5,320 bases of DNA from positions 1 to 5,320 of the forward strand of contig DGRY01000050.1 in assembly GCA_002391185.1 (NCBI GenBank). The letters run 5' to 3'. Origin of the DNA: Prevotella sp. UBA4376 (lineage in GTDB: Bacteria; Bacteroidota; Bacteroidia; Bacteroidales; Bacteroidaceae). The position numbers and the translations under genes are program-made. Positions 1-5,307 of this stretch are shown in pieces; the stretch's first letter is position 1; each line of letters begins with the position of its first letter. Under the pieces are notes generated by a model, which was not told the DNA's origin, did not search any database, and worked only from the letters and a program-made list of their open reading frames with translations.

Positions 1-60
1 TGATATCCTTTGCGCTTATTGCGCACTGGTGCATCAGCACATAATTTTCCAAGCTTAAGC

Positions 61-186
61 ATGAGAGCCGAACTTGTGAGGGAGGAATATTTATATGAAC
101 CTGATGAGAGCTTGCTCACAAAAAGGTTCAAAGAAATATACCACACGGCTTTGAAGAAGCCCACTCATGCTCAAGCATTTTCTTAA
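61..186 (+). CDS. Doubtful small ORF, 41 codons
   Basis: This plus-strand frame starts with ATG at 61, reads MRAELVREEYLYEP..., is rich in charged residues, and ends with TAA at 184-186. The frame is open back to a TGA at 1-3, so unless a frameshift lies nearby it cannot be the tail of a longer gene entering from the left. There is no ribosome site, signal peptide or family I recognise. It converges on the DGR operon, whose terminator lies 150 bases downstream. It could be a small gene, a degraded 3' end or chance. Confidence 0.25.
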   Translation: MRAELVREEYLYEPDESLLTKRFKEIYHTALKKPTHAQAFS

Positions 187-200
187 AAAACTTATAATGC

Positions 201-227
201 ATTCGTGTGATTCGTGCGATTCGTGTT
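201..227. repeat. Three tandem 9-base units ATTCGTGNN
   Basis: The units ATTCGTGTG, ATTCGTGCG and ATTCGTGTT are contiguous. Short ATTCGTG repeats of this kind are frequent in Bacteroidales intergenic DNA. Three short units with no spacers do not make a CRISPR. Confidence 0.65.
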
Positions 228-300
228 CACTCACCAAACGACTAAACCACTAATTTTGAATATTGAATTTTTGCAACAAGAAACTCAAGCAGGTAATTCT

Positions 301-318
301 CCTCTCCTACCGGAGAGG
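301..318. repeat. Perfect 7-bp hairpin, intergenic
   Basis: CCTCTCC pairs with GGAGAGG across a TACC loop, followed by a related GGGAGAGGCT. This resembles short palindromic intergenic elements seen widely in Bacteroidetes genomes. It lies just beyond the operon terminator, and no U-run follows on either strand. Confidence 0.5.
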
Positions 319-333
319 TCGGGAGAGGCTGCT

Positions 334-362
334 AAAAAAGGAGGCACATCACTGTGCCTCCT
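334..362 (-). terminator. Rho-independent terminator of the DGR operon
   Basis: On the minus strand AGGAGGCACA and TGTGCCTCCT (353-362 and 339-348) form a perfect 10-bp stem with loop GTGA, followed directly by a run of U (plus-strand A run 334-339). This is a textbook intrinsic terminator pointing left. It lies about 240 bases past the TR and would end transcription of the operon inside the window. On the plus strand no U-run follows the stem. Confidence 0.8.
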
Positions 363-374
363 AAATACTTCGCA

Positions 375-392
375 ATGGGCACGCTTGCCCAT
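375..392. repeat. Perfect 7-bp hairpin in the TR trailer
   Basis: ATGGGCA pairs with TGCCCAT across a CGCT loop. It has the same geometry (7-bp stem, 4-base loop) as the two hairpins after the VR and the one at 301-318, and lies just before the terminator in the direction of transcription. Confidence 0.5.
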
Positions 393-470
393 AAAAGAAT
401 ATTTTATTAAATTATTCGATAAAATCAGCGCCTCACGGCGGTATATTTTTTAAGCGCGGAGCGCTCGTTT

Positions 471-532
471 ATCATTTATAACCTTTGAACTTTGAGGTTT
501 GAGTTTTGAACTTTATGATTACATTCAATGTT
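471..532. repeat. Dispersed AT-rich repeat, left copy
   Basis: Shares the string ATTTATAACCTTTGAA, then TTTTGAACTTTATGAT, with the copy at 4132-4179, in the same orientation. This copy carries about 14-15 additional bases (TTTGAGGTTTGAG region) between the two blocks. Similar AT-rich elements are common between genes in Bacteroidales. It lies just beyond the TR trailer hairpin. Confidence 0.6.
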
Positions 533-557
533 CAATATTCAATATTCAATGTTCAAT
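523..557. repeat. Five tandem heptamers RTTCAAT
   Basis: Five uninterrupted 7-base units ATTCAAT/GTTCAAT occupy exactly 35 bases, right next to the hairpin 3' of the TR. On the minus strand the unit reads ATTGAAY. It may be a slippage-prone microsatellite; no function is evident. Confidence 0.75.
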
Positions 558-558
558 A

Positions 559-587
559 GCGAAGCGCCTGCGGCTGCGGCGCTTTGC
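559..587 (-). other. Strong hairpin immediately 3' of the TR
   Basis: GCGAAGCGCC (559-568) pairs with GGCGCTTTGC (578-587), giving 10 pairs with one wobble or mismatch depending on the strand and a 9-base GC-rich loop. It lies 15 bases beyond the TR in the direction of transcription, where DGR RNAs carry the structured spacer used for priming. It is not followed by a U-run, so it is unlikely to be a terminator. Confidence 0.5.
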
Positions 588-602
588 GCACTAAAAGGCT
601 AA

Positions 603-734
603 AACTGCGCGTACGCGGTTCGTGTTCGACTTATTGTTGTTGTTCAAGTTCATATTGCCATCACTGTTGAAGTTGGCGTTGTAAGCGTTGTTCGAACTGT
701 TCTCGCTGGAACTCCAGTAGTTCTCATTGCTTTC
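603..734 (-). repeat. DGR template repeat (TR)
   Basis: This 132-base non-coding copy of the target's 3' end is in the same orientation as the VR. Read in the target frame it contains 16 Asn codons out of 44 (13 AAC, 3 AAT), including AAC AAC AAC AAT at 633-644. AAY codons are the classic DGR design: random change of the two A positions samples many amino acids but never makes a stop. All 20 VR differences fall on its A residues (minus strand). The match also covers the GC-rich 3' block at 603-619. No start codon or ribosome site makes it a gene of its own. Similarity becomes unclear beyond 735; at the other end coding-like similarity (Leu-Ala-Phe against Ile-Ala-Phe) continues to 594. Confidence 0.95.
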
Positions 735-754
735 TGTTATCAGTGTATTCTTTA

Positions 755-910
755 CTAACTATTGCCTTCACGAGGCATCTGCCAGTCGATAACCCATTTC
801 CACAGGAAATCAGCTCTCTTTGTTAAGCCGTAGCCAAACAAACTCTCGCCACATCTTTTCTTATCGTTTAGTCTTTTCTTTGTAATTCTCTTTTCAGTTT
901 TGCAATAAAG
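755..910 (-). other. TR leader region with a doubtful small open frame
   Basis: On the minus strand this stretch links the msl-like gene to the TR. A reading frame stays open for 52 codons between stops, overlapping the msl 3' end in another frame; its later part reads FGYGLTKRADFLWKWV and ends before a TAG at 755-757. It has no ATG near its beginning and no ribosome site, so I do not call a gene. It may be a decayed ORF or simply structured leader RNA. Two perfect small hairpins lie within it: ATTTCC/GGAAAT (796-810, 3-base loop) and TGCCT/AGGCA (763-777, 5-base loop). Confidence 0.3.
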
Positions 911-1332
911 TTAATGGCATCCATTGGTGATGAATTCGATAAGTCATACTCACGCAATTCTCTCAACACCATTTCCTTAACATTGCTACTCCTGTTAGTT
1001 TCACTCACTGGCTGCGTATATTCTTCGGCAGCCACAACAACATCAGTGGATGAGATATCAATACCTTCAAATTCCACAACATCATCTGTGTTTCTTTTTA
1101 TGTTACCATTGTTCTCTTTTATTTTGGTTATTATTTTAGGAAGCTGGCTAATAGGAAAGCCCAACACATATATTGTTCCCAATCGCTTGCGTTGTTTCGT
1201 CTTCACTTTATAACCAGTTATCTTTGCAAGGGCATAAGCTCCTTCGTTATATGCATTATAAAACATGCCGATTTTAATTAAGAAGCAGCTATTGCCCTTT
1301 GCTTGTTCTGCTATTACTTCACTTTCTGTCAT
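868..1332 (-). CDS. MutS-domain-I-like protein, probable DGR accessory (MSL type)
   Basis: This 154-residue protein resembles only the N-terminal mismatch-recognition domain of MutS. Residues 17-44 (FLIKIGMFYNAYNEGAYALA...) match the MutS pattern of a hydrophobic strand, G-x-FY, then a helix; LGFP at 57-60 corresponds to the MutS GVPYH turn, followed by a helix (64-73) and NGNIKR (75-80). The MutS connector, clamp and ATPase domains are absent, against roughly 850 residues for full MutS, so this is not a repair enzyme. The DNA-contacting Phe-x-Glu of MutS reads Phe-Tyr-Asn here (24-26), so the Glu is lost. Residues 81-115 look acidic and low in structure; 116-152 is a charged helix. MutS-like proteins are a recognised minor class of DGR accessory genes. 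A role with TR RNA, cDNA or heteroduplexes is inference. Its start overlaps the end of avd by 14 bases. Confidence 0.75.
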   Translation of the reverse strand: MTESEVIAEQAKGNSCFLIKIGMFYNAYNEGAYALAKITGYKVKTKQRKRLGTIYVLGFPISQLPKIITKIKENNGNIKRNTDDVVEFEGIDISSTDVVVAAEEYTQPVSETNRSSNVKEMVLRELREYDLSNSSPMDAINFIAKLKRELQRKD

Positions 1333-1687
1333 TTCTTTCTGTTTGTTTATCTAATGACTTTTTCCATCCTGTTGCCTGTTTGCCAATCTTTGTGAGAATC
1401 ATTGCAATATGTGAATACTGTGCTGGCGTGATAATTTTTTCTTCAACACACAACCGATACAGCAACATTAACATATGATATTTTGAAAGAAACTTTTCCA
1501 AATACGGGAGCTTATTGTATGAACTATTTATTTCAAATATCAACTCCAGCATATCAAGATTAGCATTCAGCATGCGCTCACCTATGGTGTAGCGATAGAA
1601 TTTTGGATAATTCTGTAATTTATGTACTGTCTCATGTAATAATTTTAAAGTATCTCTATATATAGGTAATTCTTCTGATAACGCCAT
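1319..1687 (-). CDS. avd: DGR accessory variability determinant (Avd-like four-helix protein)
   Basis: This 122-residue protein has the size, composition and sequence pattern of the Avd family of DGR accessory proteins (ribosomal S23-like four-helix bundle). In Bordetella phage BPP-1, Avd is a basic pentamer that binds the reverse transcriptase and template RNA and is essential for retrohoming. Family-like features are LPIYRDTLKLL (7-17), NYPKFYRYTIGERM (26-39), LELIFEINSSYNK (47-59), LPYLEKFLSKY (60-70) and IGKQATGWKKS (101-111), in four amphipathic helices. The tail is strongly charged (KKSLDKQTERNDRK). The ATG is the first in frame and sits after an A-run. Its stop overlaps the start of the next gene by 14 bases, implying translational coupling. 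Its position between VR and TR is the usual DGR arrangement. It contains no reverse transcriptase motif. Confidence 0.85.
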   Translation of the reverse strand: MALSEELPIYRDTLKLLHETVHKLQNYPKFYRYTIGERMLNANLDMLELIFEINSSYNKLPYLEKFLSKYHMLMLLYRLCVEEKIITPAQYSHIAMILTKIGKQATGWKKSLDKQTERNDRK

Positions 1688-1692
1688 TTCGG

Positions 1693-1702
1693 TTTTTTTT
1701 TT
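1693..1702 (-). promoter_or_regulatory. A10 homopolymer in the avd ribosome-loading region
   Basis: Ten consecutive A residues on the minus strand lie 6-15 bases upstream of the avd ATG. There is no Shine-Dalgarno, and A-rich leaders commonly support initiation in Bacteroidetes. A run of this length is also prone to slippage, so its length could vary between cells. Confidence 0.4.
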
Positions 1703-1745
1703 GACCGCCTTACGGCGGTCTTTTATACCAACGCATAAGCGTTGG
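1703..1745 (-). promoter_or_regulatory. Two tandem perfect hairpins downstream of the VR
   Basis: Two inverted repeats lie between the target stop and avd, each with a 7-bp perfect stem and a 4-base loop: CCAACGC/GCGTTGG at 1728-1745, and GACCGCC/GGCGGTC at 1703-1720 (minus-strand loop GTAA). In the Bordetella phage DGR a GC-rich hairpin or cruciform just after the VR stimulates retrohoming. These are placed comparably but about 43 bases from the VR end, further than in that phage. Neither is followed by a U-run on the minus strand (an A-run follows), so they are poor terminators of the target transcript. They could also affect mRNA stability or avd translation. Confidence 0.55.
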
Positions 1746-1776
1746 AAATAGATAAATTGGTAAATTGATAAATAGG

Positions 1777-4101
1777 TCAGAATGCTATAACTGCGCGTAC
1801 GCGGTACGCGTTCGACTTATAGTTGTGGAGCAAGTACATATTGCCACCACTGTAGAAGTCGGCGTAGTAAGCGAGGGTCGAATAACTGCCCTCGCTGGAA
1901 CTCCAGTAGTCCTCATAGCTACCGAAGCTATCGTATTTGCCAGAGCCAACTTTACTGAGCTTACTATTGAGTGTTGCACTCGTACTACCTAAGTTGCGCG
2001 ATATATTATTCCACTGACCACTACTTGGAAGGAACCAGCCACTTGAATTTGAAGGAGCAGTTGCCTGACTTGCGTAAGTGGTCTTGGCAGCATAGCCAGC
2101 AGGGTAAGCTGTACTATTGAGATAAGTAGTGTTGGTGTAACCATCCATATCCTCCCCGTTAGGAATTCCAGACACGTCAGTACCTTCTCTACCCCATTCA
2201 TAATAACCAACTGTACTACCGCTACTGTGCACATTCTTCAATGCCATGGCATAGCCGTGTTTCCAATTAGCATTCGCTTGACGATCTTTAGTTGTTGTTA
2301 CAGGACTATTCGCATTTGTTGTTGCCATAAACACAATTGCTACAGGAGTTTTACCACTTCGTAACGACTCTGATTGGTGACTAAATCCACCATCACTATA
2401 AAGAATGTCGCCCACCTGCAAGGTGTAGGATGTAGAGTTGGATATTGATGTCCTTGAACTTTGTACTGTATAGGTATAAGAACTGTTTGCTGCAACATTA
2501 CACGATTGACTCCAACTATCAGTACCTGTGGCAGAAAAAGAGGTTGCTGTACTTGCCTTTACTACAGCTACATAATTGGTGCCACTTGTAATAGGATATG
2601 GTGTATTGCCAGAAAAACTGCTTGATGCTTTAACATTCTGTGAACTAGAAGTATTCCATCTATAATTAGCATCTATTGATAAACTAAATCCAGTATTAAC
2701 ATTTACACTTTTAGTACCTAAATTTATATATGCTAATCCTACAGCATGATTCATAGTAAAATTAATAGCTCTAGCATCTAATGAGATTGTCCCCTTTGCT
2801 ACTTGAAGATCACTGGAAACAAAACTAGTACTTGTACTTTGATTCGACAGAATTGTCCAGTTACTTATTCCTGTTGCAAAGAAGGTTGGAGCACTAGTTA
2901 TATTTGTCGTAGGAGTTAGCCCATCAGTCTTATATGGATAATATGCAAAAAAGCTATAACCCGCTTCGTAATATAAATTTATGGATGAAGGTATAGTCCA
3001 TTTGCTCCCATTATATGTTATTTTGACATTGCTATGTATAAGATTACCACTGGCATCAGCAACATATAATCCTGCCTCATCACCATTACTGTAATTCTGT
3101 TTAGGAAGGTTTGTTTTTAAACTTGGAAAAACTATGCTACCAATGTTTAGTTTTATAGTTGATGACATAATCACATAGGTAATTGTCGAACCTGCTTCCC
3201 AGCTGGATCCTGTTAAAGGATAACTAAATGTATATGTTCTCTCGCCTTCATTATACACCACTTCTATAAGCTGTTCACTATCGGAGAACTGCTGGGGAAT
3301 CATTGTCATGGCAACGCCTTCGGTGGCTGCGACATCAGAACGGGTGATGCCAGCAAAGCTCCAACCTCCACCAAATGTTAGCTTCCCCGAGTTATACACT
3401 TTCTTTATGCTTATGCTTGTTATGGTGCCAGGCAGTTCATCGCTCTTTTCAAATTTAATTGTTGTTAGCGCATGATTAAAGGTAAGGGGTACACCTGTGC
3501 CTGTTACCGTTAATGCCTGATTGGTGGCTGTTGCTGTGATAAGGTCATGCTGACTGCTGGCATCGTAGGTTATCGTTGGCACTCCAGTTGCTGATGCCGG
3601 CGAGAGGGTGATACCTGCACCTTGATAAGGAGCATAGGCATAAAAATCGAGCACATCGCTGTTCATTGGCCAGAATTGCTTTTCGGCAGTAGCCCATCTA
3701 TTACCCGTTTTCACCACCTCGGCATCATAGATGAAATTTGGTGCCATGCTGGCTATACTTGCAGTCGATGCACGACGGAAAGCCACCACGCCAAAATTAC
3801 TGAGGTTATTCTCCGTATAAAGAGTAACACGTGACGAAGATTTTAACTCGTCAACAACATCAGCTGTTTTTGATACCAACGGATACATATACATTGGTTT
3901 ATCATAATCAGATTCCGCCTTTATTGGCTCCTGTAATCCACTAATGCTATCTGTAACAGCACGAGAGCCATTCTCTGCGCTCTGATCAGAAGTGCAAACC
4001 TTAAAGCAAATCTCCTTGTTGGAAAGAGCCGAATGGTCTGGTTCAAATTCGCTGCATGCGGCAAGGGTCATAGCAGCAAGAAAATATAATATCTTTTTCA
4101 T
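1777..4101 (-). CDS. DGR target: fimbrillin-like lipoprotein with variable C-type-lectin/FISUMP-like C-terminal domain
   Basis: Predicted 774-residue surface lipoprotein whose C-terminus is diversified by the adjacent retroelement. Signal peptide at 1-16 with lipobox LAAC (Cys16); Ser-Arg-Ala at 46-48 resembles an Arg-protease maturation site of type V pilins. Two fimbrillin-like modules follow with matching motifs: FYAYAPYQ (153-160) with FNHALTTI (208-215), and FFAYYPYK (384-391) with MNHAVGLA (450-457). Residues ~555-774 form a C-type-lectin/FISUMP-like domain with VGDILYSDGGF (563-573), GWFLPSSGQW (688-697), YWSSSE (732-737) and terminal RVRAVIAF. Residues 727-771 are encoded by the VR; 16 of them differ from the template (727, 729, 731, 738, 742, 743, 746, 748, 750, 752, 756, 758, 759, 761, 765, 766). 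The second module is far more AT-rich than the first, suggesting a mosaic gene. The function, binding a variable ligand such as a glycan or another cell, is inferred from known DGR targets. The avd-like gene follows 89 bases downstream. Confidence 0.9.
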   Translation of the reverse strand: MKKILYFLAAMTLAACSEFEPDHSALSNKEICFKVCTSDQSAENGSRAVTDSISGLQEPIKAESDYDKPMYMYPLVSKTADVVDELKSSSRVTLYTENNLSNFGVVAFRRASTASIASMAPNFIYDAEVVKTGNRWATAEKQFWPMNSDVLDFYAYAPYQGAGITLSPASATGVPTITYDASSQHDLITATATNQALTVTGTGVPLTFNHALTTIKFEKSDELPGTITSISIKKVYNSGKLTFGGGWSFAGITRSDVAATEGVAMTMIPQQFSDSEQLIEVVYNEGERTYTFSYPLTGSSWEAGSTITYVIMSSTIKLNIGSIVFPSLKTNLPKQNYSNGDEAGLYVADASGNLIHSNVKITYNGSKWTIPSSINLYYEAGYSFFAYYPYKTDGLTPTTNITSAPTFFATGISNWTILSNQSTSTSFVSSDLQVAKGTISLDARAINFTMNHAVGLAYINLGTKSVNVNTGFSLSIDANYRWNTSSSQNVKASSSFSGNTPYPITSGTNYVAVVKASTATSFSATGTDSWSQSCNVAANSSYTYTVQSSRTSISNSTSYTLQVGDILYSDGGFSHQSESLRSGKTPVAIVFMATTNANSPVTTTKDRQANANWKHGYAMALKNVHSSGSTVGYYEWGREGTDVSGIPNGEDMDGYTNTTYLNSTAYPAGYAAKTTYASQATAPSNSSGWFLPSSGQWNNISRNLGSTSATLNSKLSKVGSGKYDSFGSYEDYWSSSEGSYSTLAYYADFYSGGNMYLLHNYKSNAYRVRAVIAF
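1789..1805 (-). other. Putative IMH (initiation of mutagenic homing) core of the VR
   Basis: The last 17 bases of the VR (coding sense) are identical to TR 603-619 and GC-rich, and contain the 10-base perfect palindrome CGCGTACGCG (1794-1803). Beyond them the two copies diverge at bases that are not template A: ATA GCA TTC then stop in the target, TTA GCC TTT with no stop at the TR. In characterised DGRs such a GC-rich block, differing slightly from its TR counterpart, marks the 3' boundary and sets the direction of homing. Assignment is by position and composition. Confidence 0.65.
1789..1923 (-). repeat. DGR variable repeat (VR)
   Basis: This 135-base segment encodes target residues 727-771 and aligns end to end with the template repeat at 603-734. 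All 20 substitutions are at bases that are A in the TR in coding orientation; the other 82 TR positions are unchanged. Of 16 Asn codons in the TR, 13 are changed here (to Tyr, His, Leu, Asp, Thr or Gly). One extra in-frame Tyr codon (1882-1884, residue 740) has no partner in the TR. Its 3' end in coding sense is a GC-rich block identical to the TR, the expected initiation-of-mutagenic-homing site. Confidence 0.95.
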
Positions 4102-4200
4102 TGTCAGTTTGTAGTTTATAGTTTACGGTTTACCATTTATAACCTTTGAATTTTGAACTTTATGATAACATTTTATGTTACTTCCATCTAATGCTTTGCA
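4102..4200 (-). other. Intergenic spacer between the two lipoprotein genes
   Basis: This 99-base AT-rich gap separates the fimbrial lipoprotein stop from the target ATG. It contains the right-hand copy of a dispersed repeat (4132-4179) and a weak 5-bp inverted repeat (AACAT/ATGTT, 4167-4179). I see no exact Bacteroidetes TAnnTTTG -7 box on the minus strand, so I cannot say whether the target has its own promoter or is read from upstream. Confidence 0.5.
4132..4179. repeat. Dispersed AT-rich repeat, right copy
   Basis: Second copy of the element at 471-532, without the internal extra bases, immediately upstream of the target gene. Together the two copies bracket target, avd, msl and TR as direct repeats. 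No inverted ends or transposase are present. Confidence 0.6.
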
Positions 4201-5307
4201 CTACAATTGCATATCGATCGTTTCTCGTGTTTCAGTTGCCCAAGGAGTTACCTCTATTGTTGCATTCACATCACCATTGATTCCTGCACGGTAGTCATCA
4301 ATAATATAGCTTGAGAACACGATGTTGAGATGGTAATCGTGATTACGAAGGATATTGAACTGGGTGGCATCGGGATTACCATCAGCATCAACACCACCAA
4401 GATAGATGCGGTAGTAATATGCAAGGGAAGGTTCAGAAGGCTTGCATGCCGTAACCTCAAGATAGGCAGCTGTGGCTGGCGCCTTACCCTCTATGCGGTC
4501 GCGCTGATTGGTGATGATACTGCTGCTAATGGGAGCATTATACGACTTGAAGCCGTAGTAGCTGATGTTCTCTGCCAAAGCGGTACTACCCAAATCAACC
4601 TTTGTTGAACTCTGATAATCCGTGCCCGTCATATCCTCATCATGCCCCACGAGATAGTCGCCAACAGGCATGTTTACAAAACGGTAGCTAAGCAGTTGCA
4701 CATCATTGCCGTAGAGGTTGAGCACAAACTTAGGCACAAGGCGCACAAGATTAAGTTTGAAACCCACACCAGCAAGCGCCAGTCGCTTTATTGCTTTGTT
4801 TGAGATCATTAAGGCATGTGTTTCGTTGGTTACAGTAGCCACAGGTGTTTCATCGCCAGCCTTATAGAGCGAGAAAGTGCCCTGTGTGCTGCCATCGGCA
4901 TCAGCAGCCTTTACATACATATTCTCAAACTCAGACAGAGTTATACTGTGATCACTGAATGCCGTAGAATTACCAAGATTGGCTATAGCATATACAGCAA
5001 CCTGTGTTTCCTGAGCACCAGCAATGGCCAGTTTGCAGGTGATGTTCGACAGGTTGTCAACCTCGGTGTATCCATTGCTGAGCATAACACCTGTTTCGTT
5101 GTTGAAAGCTAAGATATGAATATTGGCTATCTTGTTCTCGTTTGCATCATTAAGAGCACGAGATTTGCCAACACTCACAGCATCATCAACCTTTATGTTC
5201 ACTGTGAGCTCGTTTGATGCCTTAGCCTTTTCCTCTTCATTGGTGCAACCTGCAAACAGCAATGCAACACCAAGAACTAATAGCCAGTAATATAAAAATC
5301 GTTTCAT
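4201..5307 (-). CDS. Fimbrial-type lipoprotein (fimbrillin / Mfa-like family)
   Basis: Predicted 368-residue exported lipoprotein related to the type V pilus (FimA/Mfa) proteins of Bacteroidales. Residues 1-21 form a signal peptide: basic MKR, a hydrophobic stretch, and lipobox LFAGC with Cys21 as the lipidated residue. A Ser-Arg-Ala at 49-51 lies about 30 residues after the lipid Cys, where type V pilins are cut after Arg by a trypsin-like protease; this use here is inference. The C-terminal third has family-typical features: YLEVTA near 282, a YYYRIYLGG strand near 297, RNHDYHLNI at 321-329, and a terminal EVTPW at 352-356, as in DUF4906/Mfa-like proteins. The start is an ATG followed by a standard signal peptide; the upstream bases are A/T-rich with no Shine-Dalgarno, normal for the phylum. 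It precedes the DGR target gene by 99 bases in the same direction. Shaft, anchor or accessory subunit cannot be decided. Confidence 0.82.
   Translation of the reverse strand: MKRFLYYWLLVLGVALLFAGCTNEEEKAKASNELTVNIKVDDAVSVGKSRALNDANENKIANIHILAFNNETGVMLSNGYTEVDNLSNITCKLAIAGAQETQVAVYAIANLGNSTAFSDHSITLSEFENMYVKAADADGSTQGTFSLYKAGDETPVATVTNETHALMISNKAIKRLALAGVGFKLNLVRLVPKFVLNLYGNDVQLLSYRFVNMPVGDYLVGHDEDMTGTDYQSSTKVDLGSTALAENISYYGFKSYNAPISSSIITNQRDRIEGKAPATAAYLEVTACKPSEPSLAYYYRIYLGGVDADGNPDATQFNILRNHDYHLNIVFSSYIIDDYRAGINGDVNATIEVTPWATETRETIDMQL

Follow-up and report, generated by a model that had tools for sequence, protein, structure and literature searches.

A diversity-generating retroelement variant without a reverse transcriptase gene at a fimbrillin locus of Prevotella sp. 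UBA4376

We analysed a 5,320-nt stretch of DNA from Prevotella sp. UBA4376 (the window), which is an entire contig (DGRY01000050.1; C57) of a 2.37-Mb, 204-contig, 71%-complete metagenome-assembled genome (MAG) and carries parts of a diversity-generating retroelement (DGR). All genes of the window run leftward: a fimbrillin-type lipoprotein (4201–5307) is followed by a second predicted one, the target of diversification (1777–4101), then by avd (1319–1687) and a MutS-domain-I-like accessory gene, MSL (868–1332), and finally by the template repeat (TR; core 603–734). The corresponding variable repeat (VR; 1789–1923, minus strand) encodes residues 727–771 of the target. Reverse transcriptase (RT) is the defining component of a DGR, and because the cassette has none we classify it as an RT-less DGR variant, in which the signature, the accessory genes and the target type are present. 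The initial annotation had called the locus a DGR; the mutational signature, avd, MSL, the fimbrillin target and variation in two homologues uphold that call, and a complete DGR is not demonstrated in the window.

We realigned the two repeats on the minus strand, the coding sense, and recovered the coordinates that had been annotated. The alignment has one 3-nt gap and 132 aligned positions with 20 substitutions, every one of them at a template adenine (A to T in nine cases, A to G in seven and A to C in four). The TR holds 50 adenines, and none of its 82 other positions is changed. The hypergeometric probability that all 20 substitutions fall on A is 2.0e-10, in line with the earlier hand estimate of the improbability of chance placement. 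Read in frame (ESNENYWSSSENSSNNAYNANFNSDGNMNLNNNNKSNTNRVRAV, then LAF and a stop), the minus-strand TR is itself an open stretch that ends in RVRAVLAF; it contains 16 Asn codons, of which 13 are altered in the VR, and these counts, too, agree with those first reported. Such A-specific divergence is the signature of a DGR, and the lack of any non-A drift between TR and VR implies that the machinery was active recently.

The initial annotation left unstated that the VR (135 nt) exceeds the TR (132 nt) by one codon, the 3-nt indel falling where AGT meets TCG in the TR; the TR as it now stands is therefore not the exact source of the current VR. Length differences of 3 nt may reflect indels during retrohoming or alteration of the TR after copying; one is also seen in a separate cassette of another genome (L139 of G005, VR 10131–10339). 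Little homology remains upstream of the TR core, and the tails past the shared GC-rich CGCGTACGCGCAGTT diverge at non-A bases as well, as is expected beyond the retrohoming tract. The GC-rich end of the VR (1789–1803, minus strand) is the same in the TR (603–617) and is likely to be the initiation-of-mutagenic-homing (IMH) site. When we looked for further copies of the TR in the assembly, the VR alone was recovered, and six other matches of 14–24 nt (E above 2) were rejected.

Variation of the kind that the initial annotation had expected among strains at template A positions was seen at the protein level in the two homologues compared with the TR. From 126 homologues of the target we tested the two nearest among the 120 matches listed, P0001 and P0002. 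Identity to the target outside the VR is 93.9% for P0001 and 90.2% for P0002, but within the VR the two match the window at 28 and 29 of 47 residues, respectively. The TR reading has A-bearing codons at 33 of its 47 positions. P0001 differs from it at 18 residues, 17 of them at A-bearing codons (P = 3.8e-3), and P0002 at 17 residues, all at A-bearing codons (P = 4.3e-4). A change of A to any base could account for 15 of the differences in P0001 (null mean 6.4) and 16 of those in P0002 (null mean 6.1), with a maximum of 13 in 20,000 draws. P0002 is without the additional codon seen in the VR of the window, and by eye remoter homologues appear variable at the same columns. The target is likely to be a hypervariable pilus tip protein. 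Taken together, the signature, avd, MSL, the fimbrillin target and the hypervariation of two homologues support adenine-mutagenic retrohoming into the target lipoprotein.

Both accessory genes are intact open reading frames on the minus strand. The 122-residue product of avd is matched as the DGR accessory variability determinant by Pfam bAvd (E = 2e-15) and by the PHROG entry 'Avd protein of DGR' (E = 2.7e-25), with scores of 57.6 in Pfam, over the cut-off of 40, and 65.6 in NCBIfam, under the cut-off of 80. MSL (154 residues) overlaps the end of avd. A DGR accessory protein is present in Avd; MSL, at 20.3 bits against MutS_I, stops 0.3 bits short of the Pfam cut-off of 20.6. Among six MSL relatives, MutS_I scored above the cut-off in two (28.5 and 28.7 bits) and below it in two, and gave no match in two. 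HRDC and MSL are named as DGR accessory proteins, the latter with the Pfam number of MutS domain I, in the available part of a published account (PMC10053308). A PDB sequence search with Avd returned no match. In viral contigs we found no relatives of MSL and four distant relatives of Avd; the sole MSL match in GTDB contigs, at 30%, came from a Nitrospirae MAG, and phage records gave no match to window positions 1–2300 at E 1e-5.

The target is a putative 774-residue lipoprotein (minus strand) in which the fimbrillin fold is recognized by Mfa_like_1 (E = 6.5e-30). Its candidate lipoprotein signal consists of a LAAC lipobox read by eye and a weak match to LPAM_1 (E = 0.92). The C-terminal domain is likely to be C-type-lectin-like, with the VR probably forming its last strands, and domain make-up and operon position predict a type V pilus tip adhesin. 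The 368-residue lipoprotein encoded upstream (4201–5307, minus strand) matches DUF4906 (E = 4e-9) and P_gingi_FimA (E = 2.3e-4), scores 59 bits against FimD_tip_adhes, below the cut-off of 170, and likely shares a pilus operon with the target. Fimbrillin paralogues are numerous in this genome (40 Mfa_like_1 matches). The signal peptide of the target (window 4040–4101, MKKILYFLAAMTLAAC) resembles those of paralogues on contig C199, described below, and the near-identical P0001 and P0002 begin MKKIYLYTMFAAAFLA; this mismatch suggests that the 5' ends of paralogues have likely recombined. Upstream of the target gene, positions 4128–4179 belong to a dispersed intergenic repeat with several copies in the genome.

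Searches with six DGR RT proteins from the same genus found no RT anywhere in the window (best E 0.08), its 602 nt past the TR included (best E 1.5), and RT remnants in 1–602 were rejected as candidates (best tblastn E 1.5). In the 71%-complete genome, Pfam RVT_1 and one DGR RT protein, from the closed genome G024, gave no matches; the same G024 query finds a match in seven of nine genomes tried. Related loci were collected with MSL, found in 8 of 200 genomes from the genus, and with Avd, found in 13 of 329 genomes from the genus at E 1e-3 and in 12 of 399 from the family at E 1e-6; each count includes the genome of the window. Among 36 such loci, 21 (in 17 genomes) have both TR and RT, four have an RT with no TR seen (L014, which has masked bases, L020, L167 and L172) and 11 have neither, comprising nine Avd loci (L128–L134, L144 and L170) and two with MSL only (L016 and L018), which were scanned for a TR at stricter settings only. 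The absence of RT at L144 and L170 applies to the stretch fetched, not to the genome. Our TR scan requires A-only mismatches, so the A-specificity of these relatives follows from the way they were picked and carries no weight as evidence here. In all 21 loci with both elements the RT lies within about 100 nt of the A-only TR (gap of 21–98 nt in 14 loci and, by the start of the alignment, within about 70 nt in the other seven).

No TR was seen at the nine RT-less Avd loci; one match, at L130 (45 nt, A-type, six mismatches, P = 1e-4), lies 5.6 kb apart and was discounted as a TR. A clean TR without an RT occurs in the window alone among all loci examined. The RT query detects just one RT in G024, where Avd recurs at six extra places, four of them with stops; in G250, also closed, Avd is intact at L134, the RT query finds nothing genome-wide and no TR was seen at the locus. 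At the fimbrial loci L128–L133 (G024) and L134 (G250), Avd or a remnant of it persists with no RT and no TR seen; these are apparent stages of DGR decay. The RT-less relatives look like fossils. Its clean TR sets the window apart from them, which means that either an RT acts on the cassette in trans or the cassette lost its own very recently.

Several signals surround the repeats. Past the VR, on the minus strand, two hairpins with 7-bp stems begin at +44 (1728–1745, loop TTAT) and +69 (1703–1720, loop GTAA; it also scans as a terminator on the plus strand), with a fold z score of −5.6. The hairpin past the VR of a phage DGR has a GC-rich stem of 7–10 bp and a 4-nt GRNA loop according to the part of PMC3240598 available; the loops of the window also have 4 nt, and neither obeys this rule. 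The loop of one relative, L017 (GATA), does. Past the VR, the window and 11 of 14 relatives have GC-rich hairpins with stems of at least 6 bp; a T-rich tract resembling TTTATC or CTTTAA often precedes them. Downstream of the TR, a minus-strand site at 339–362 has a 10-bp stem and a T tract (DNA fold z −6.9); this intrinsic-terminator-like site is likely to be the end of the TR transcript. A GC-rich hairpin directly after the TR was rejected because its fold (z −1.4) was not clearly better than that of shuffled sequences. An Rfam scan of the window at gathering scores gave no match, and the base composition of 1–2400 yielded nothing that we used.

The order of elements past the TR is a dispersed intergenic repeat (483–568), the terminator-like site and a second such repeat (1–287). 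The first, 94% identical over 84 nt to a copy on C199 (genome G000, that of the window) and matched over shorter lengths on C97, starts 34 nt past the TR core, where the RT is expected. The second runs to the end of the contig. Its copies begin at about the first base of the contig, and the flanks upstream of six other matches diverge at about that base, so the contig probably breaks there because a repeat boundary falls at its start.

Contig C199 (L081) also carries tandem fimbrillin paralogues (9288–11120 and 11516–14074) that differ in their last 45 codons. Before the anchor RGVRPV, 12 of 12 differing codons fit a single template of Asn and Thr codons; four differing codons after the anchor do not follow the pattern. 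Judged by these codons, the pair resembles two VRs of a second, unseen Asn-rich template. When we searched the assembly for that template with a 30-base pattern (at most three mismatches), the two places recovered were the two VRs themselves; its absence suggests that some of the DGR machinery encoded by the genome likely lies outside the assembly. A third paralogue on C199 is cut off by the contig end at 16499 and resembles the target of the window there.

We favour the explanation that the 3' end of the target was rewritten by mutagenic retrohoming with an RT encoded elsewhere in the genome, and assign it a probability of roughly 0.6. The RT most likely sits in the unassembled part. In this mechanism a minus-strand RNA would run through avd, MSL and the TR and end at 362–339; RT and Avd would copy the TR with misincorporation at A; and the cDNA would enter the VR through the common GC-rich end at 1789–1803, perhaps helped by the hairpins at 1703–1745. 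In the C-terminal lectin-like domain, the resulting variants of Asn codons would alter the ligand face. The RT itself would lie at a different locus in this genome, or may have been displaced by the dispersed repeats now 3' of the TR. The lack of non-A drift between TR and VR, the open avd and MSL and the second-template pattern on C199 support an RT elsewhere. In Bordetella phage BPP-1, avd, TR and RT are described as functional in trans (PMC3240598), and remote DGR target genes with ongoing A-only change have been reported (PMC3521204), both according to the excerpts available. We also consider, tentatively, a reading in which the cassette is a satellite, non-autonomous DGR that shed its own RT, kept the TR, Avd, MSL and the diversified pilus tip, makes a terminator-ended template RNA and is one of several pilus loci on which a single RT, belonging to a different DGR of this genome, acts in trans.

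Some observations weigh against an RT in trans. Neither RVT_1 nor the G024 protein finds an RT in the MAG, which has a single Avd, and the one-codon difference means that the present TR did not produce the present VR exactly. At the six RT-less sister loci of G024 the best VR-like stretches are not A-only copies of the G024 TR (P of 0.02–0.07 in five and 5.9e-4 in one), and each has many non-A differences, which rule out that single TR as their recent rewriter. Together with the stops at four of the six extra Avd places, this suggests that copies without an RT mostly degenerate and are not maintained by an enzyme acting in trans.

The main rival is that the RT was lost very recently and that TR, avd, MSL and VR are what it left behind, frozen and still free of drift. 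Such a loss fits a contig without an RT and a MAG in which none was found, closed genomes do hold RT-less Avd loci (the six extra places of G024 and the intact Avd of G250), and the dispersed repeats at the expected place of the RT offer a possible deletion route. We nevertheless regard it as less likely, as the nine RT-less Avd loci of relatives showed no TR, one short match being discounted, and stops interrupt Avd in five of them, whereas the TR, avd and MSL of the window are intact and its two repeats are free of non-A drift. Still less probable is an assembly artefact, in which the RT truly lies directly after the TR and the first 570 bases of the contig were misjoined at a repeat. The contig does start at about a repeat boundary, the MAG is fragmented (204 contigs) and 71% complete, and the RT follows the TR in 21 of 21 relative loci; but since the nearer repeat begins 34 nt past the TR core, even a misjoin within it would require that repeat to separate TR from RT, and a terminator-like site in the right orientation lies further on. 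A plain duplication followed by drift or gene conversion, with no retroelement involved, is scarcely credible despite the abundance of fimbrillin paralogues, given the A-only placement (P = 2.0e-10), the avd gene adjoining the repeat pair and the two homologues that vary at the same codons.

If the RT acts in trans, neighbourhood searches anchored on RT would overlook cassettes of this kind, and a single RT could drive the diversification of several surface adhesins per genome. If the RT has just been lost, the window would be an early snapshot of DGR death, for which G024 suggests the order RT, then TR, then avd. Either way, it adds one more likely hypervariable pilus tip to a genome rich in fimbrillin genes. 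We met no TR-bearing RT-less cassette in the DGR literature searched, as far as the available portions of these reports extend.

Two known systems offer partial parallels for the missing RT. In the accessible part of the report on Nanoarchaeota partial DGRs (PMC4372165), the VR is A-directed and no RT lies at the site, as in the window, and the authors propose a fossil or remote diversification; those loci are described as target, VR and cis elements only, whereas the window also keeps TR, avd and MSL. The remnant or remote targets of Treponema denticola likewise lie away from or without a core; isolates without the core are described there (PMC4891356, in part) as lacking both the RT genes and the TRs, and the window retains its TR. 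The BPP-1 DGR shares A-directed divergence, Avd and a hairpin after the VR with the window and differs in its phage target, in having an RT and in the hairpin loop, which fits GRNA in phage DGRs, as presented in the excerpt of PMC3240598. Bacteroides DGRs are reported to target the tip pilins of type V pili (Macadangdang et al. 2024, as cited in the available part of the review PMC12632263), so the kind of target is already known; the window shares the predicted tip pilin target and differs in that no RT stands beside its TR. A further counterpart is a cassette of the same genus, L013 in G024, which has the same order of target, avd, MSL and TR and an A-only TR/VR pair, with 56% identity in Avd and 38% in MSL; unlike in the window, its RT begins 44 nt past the TR.

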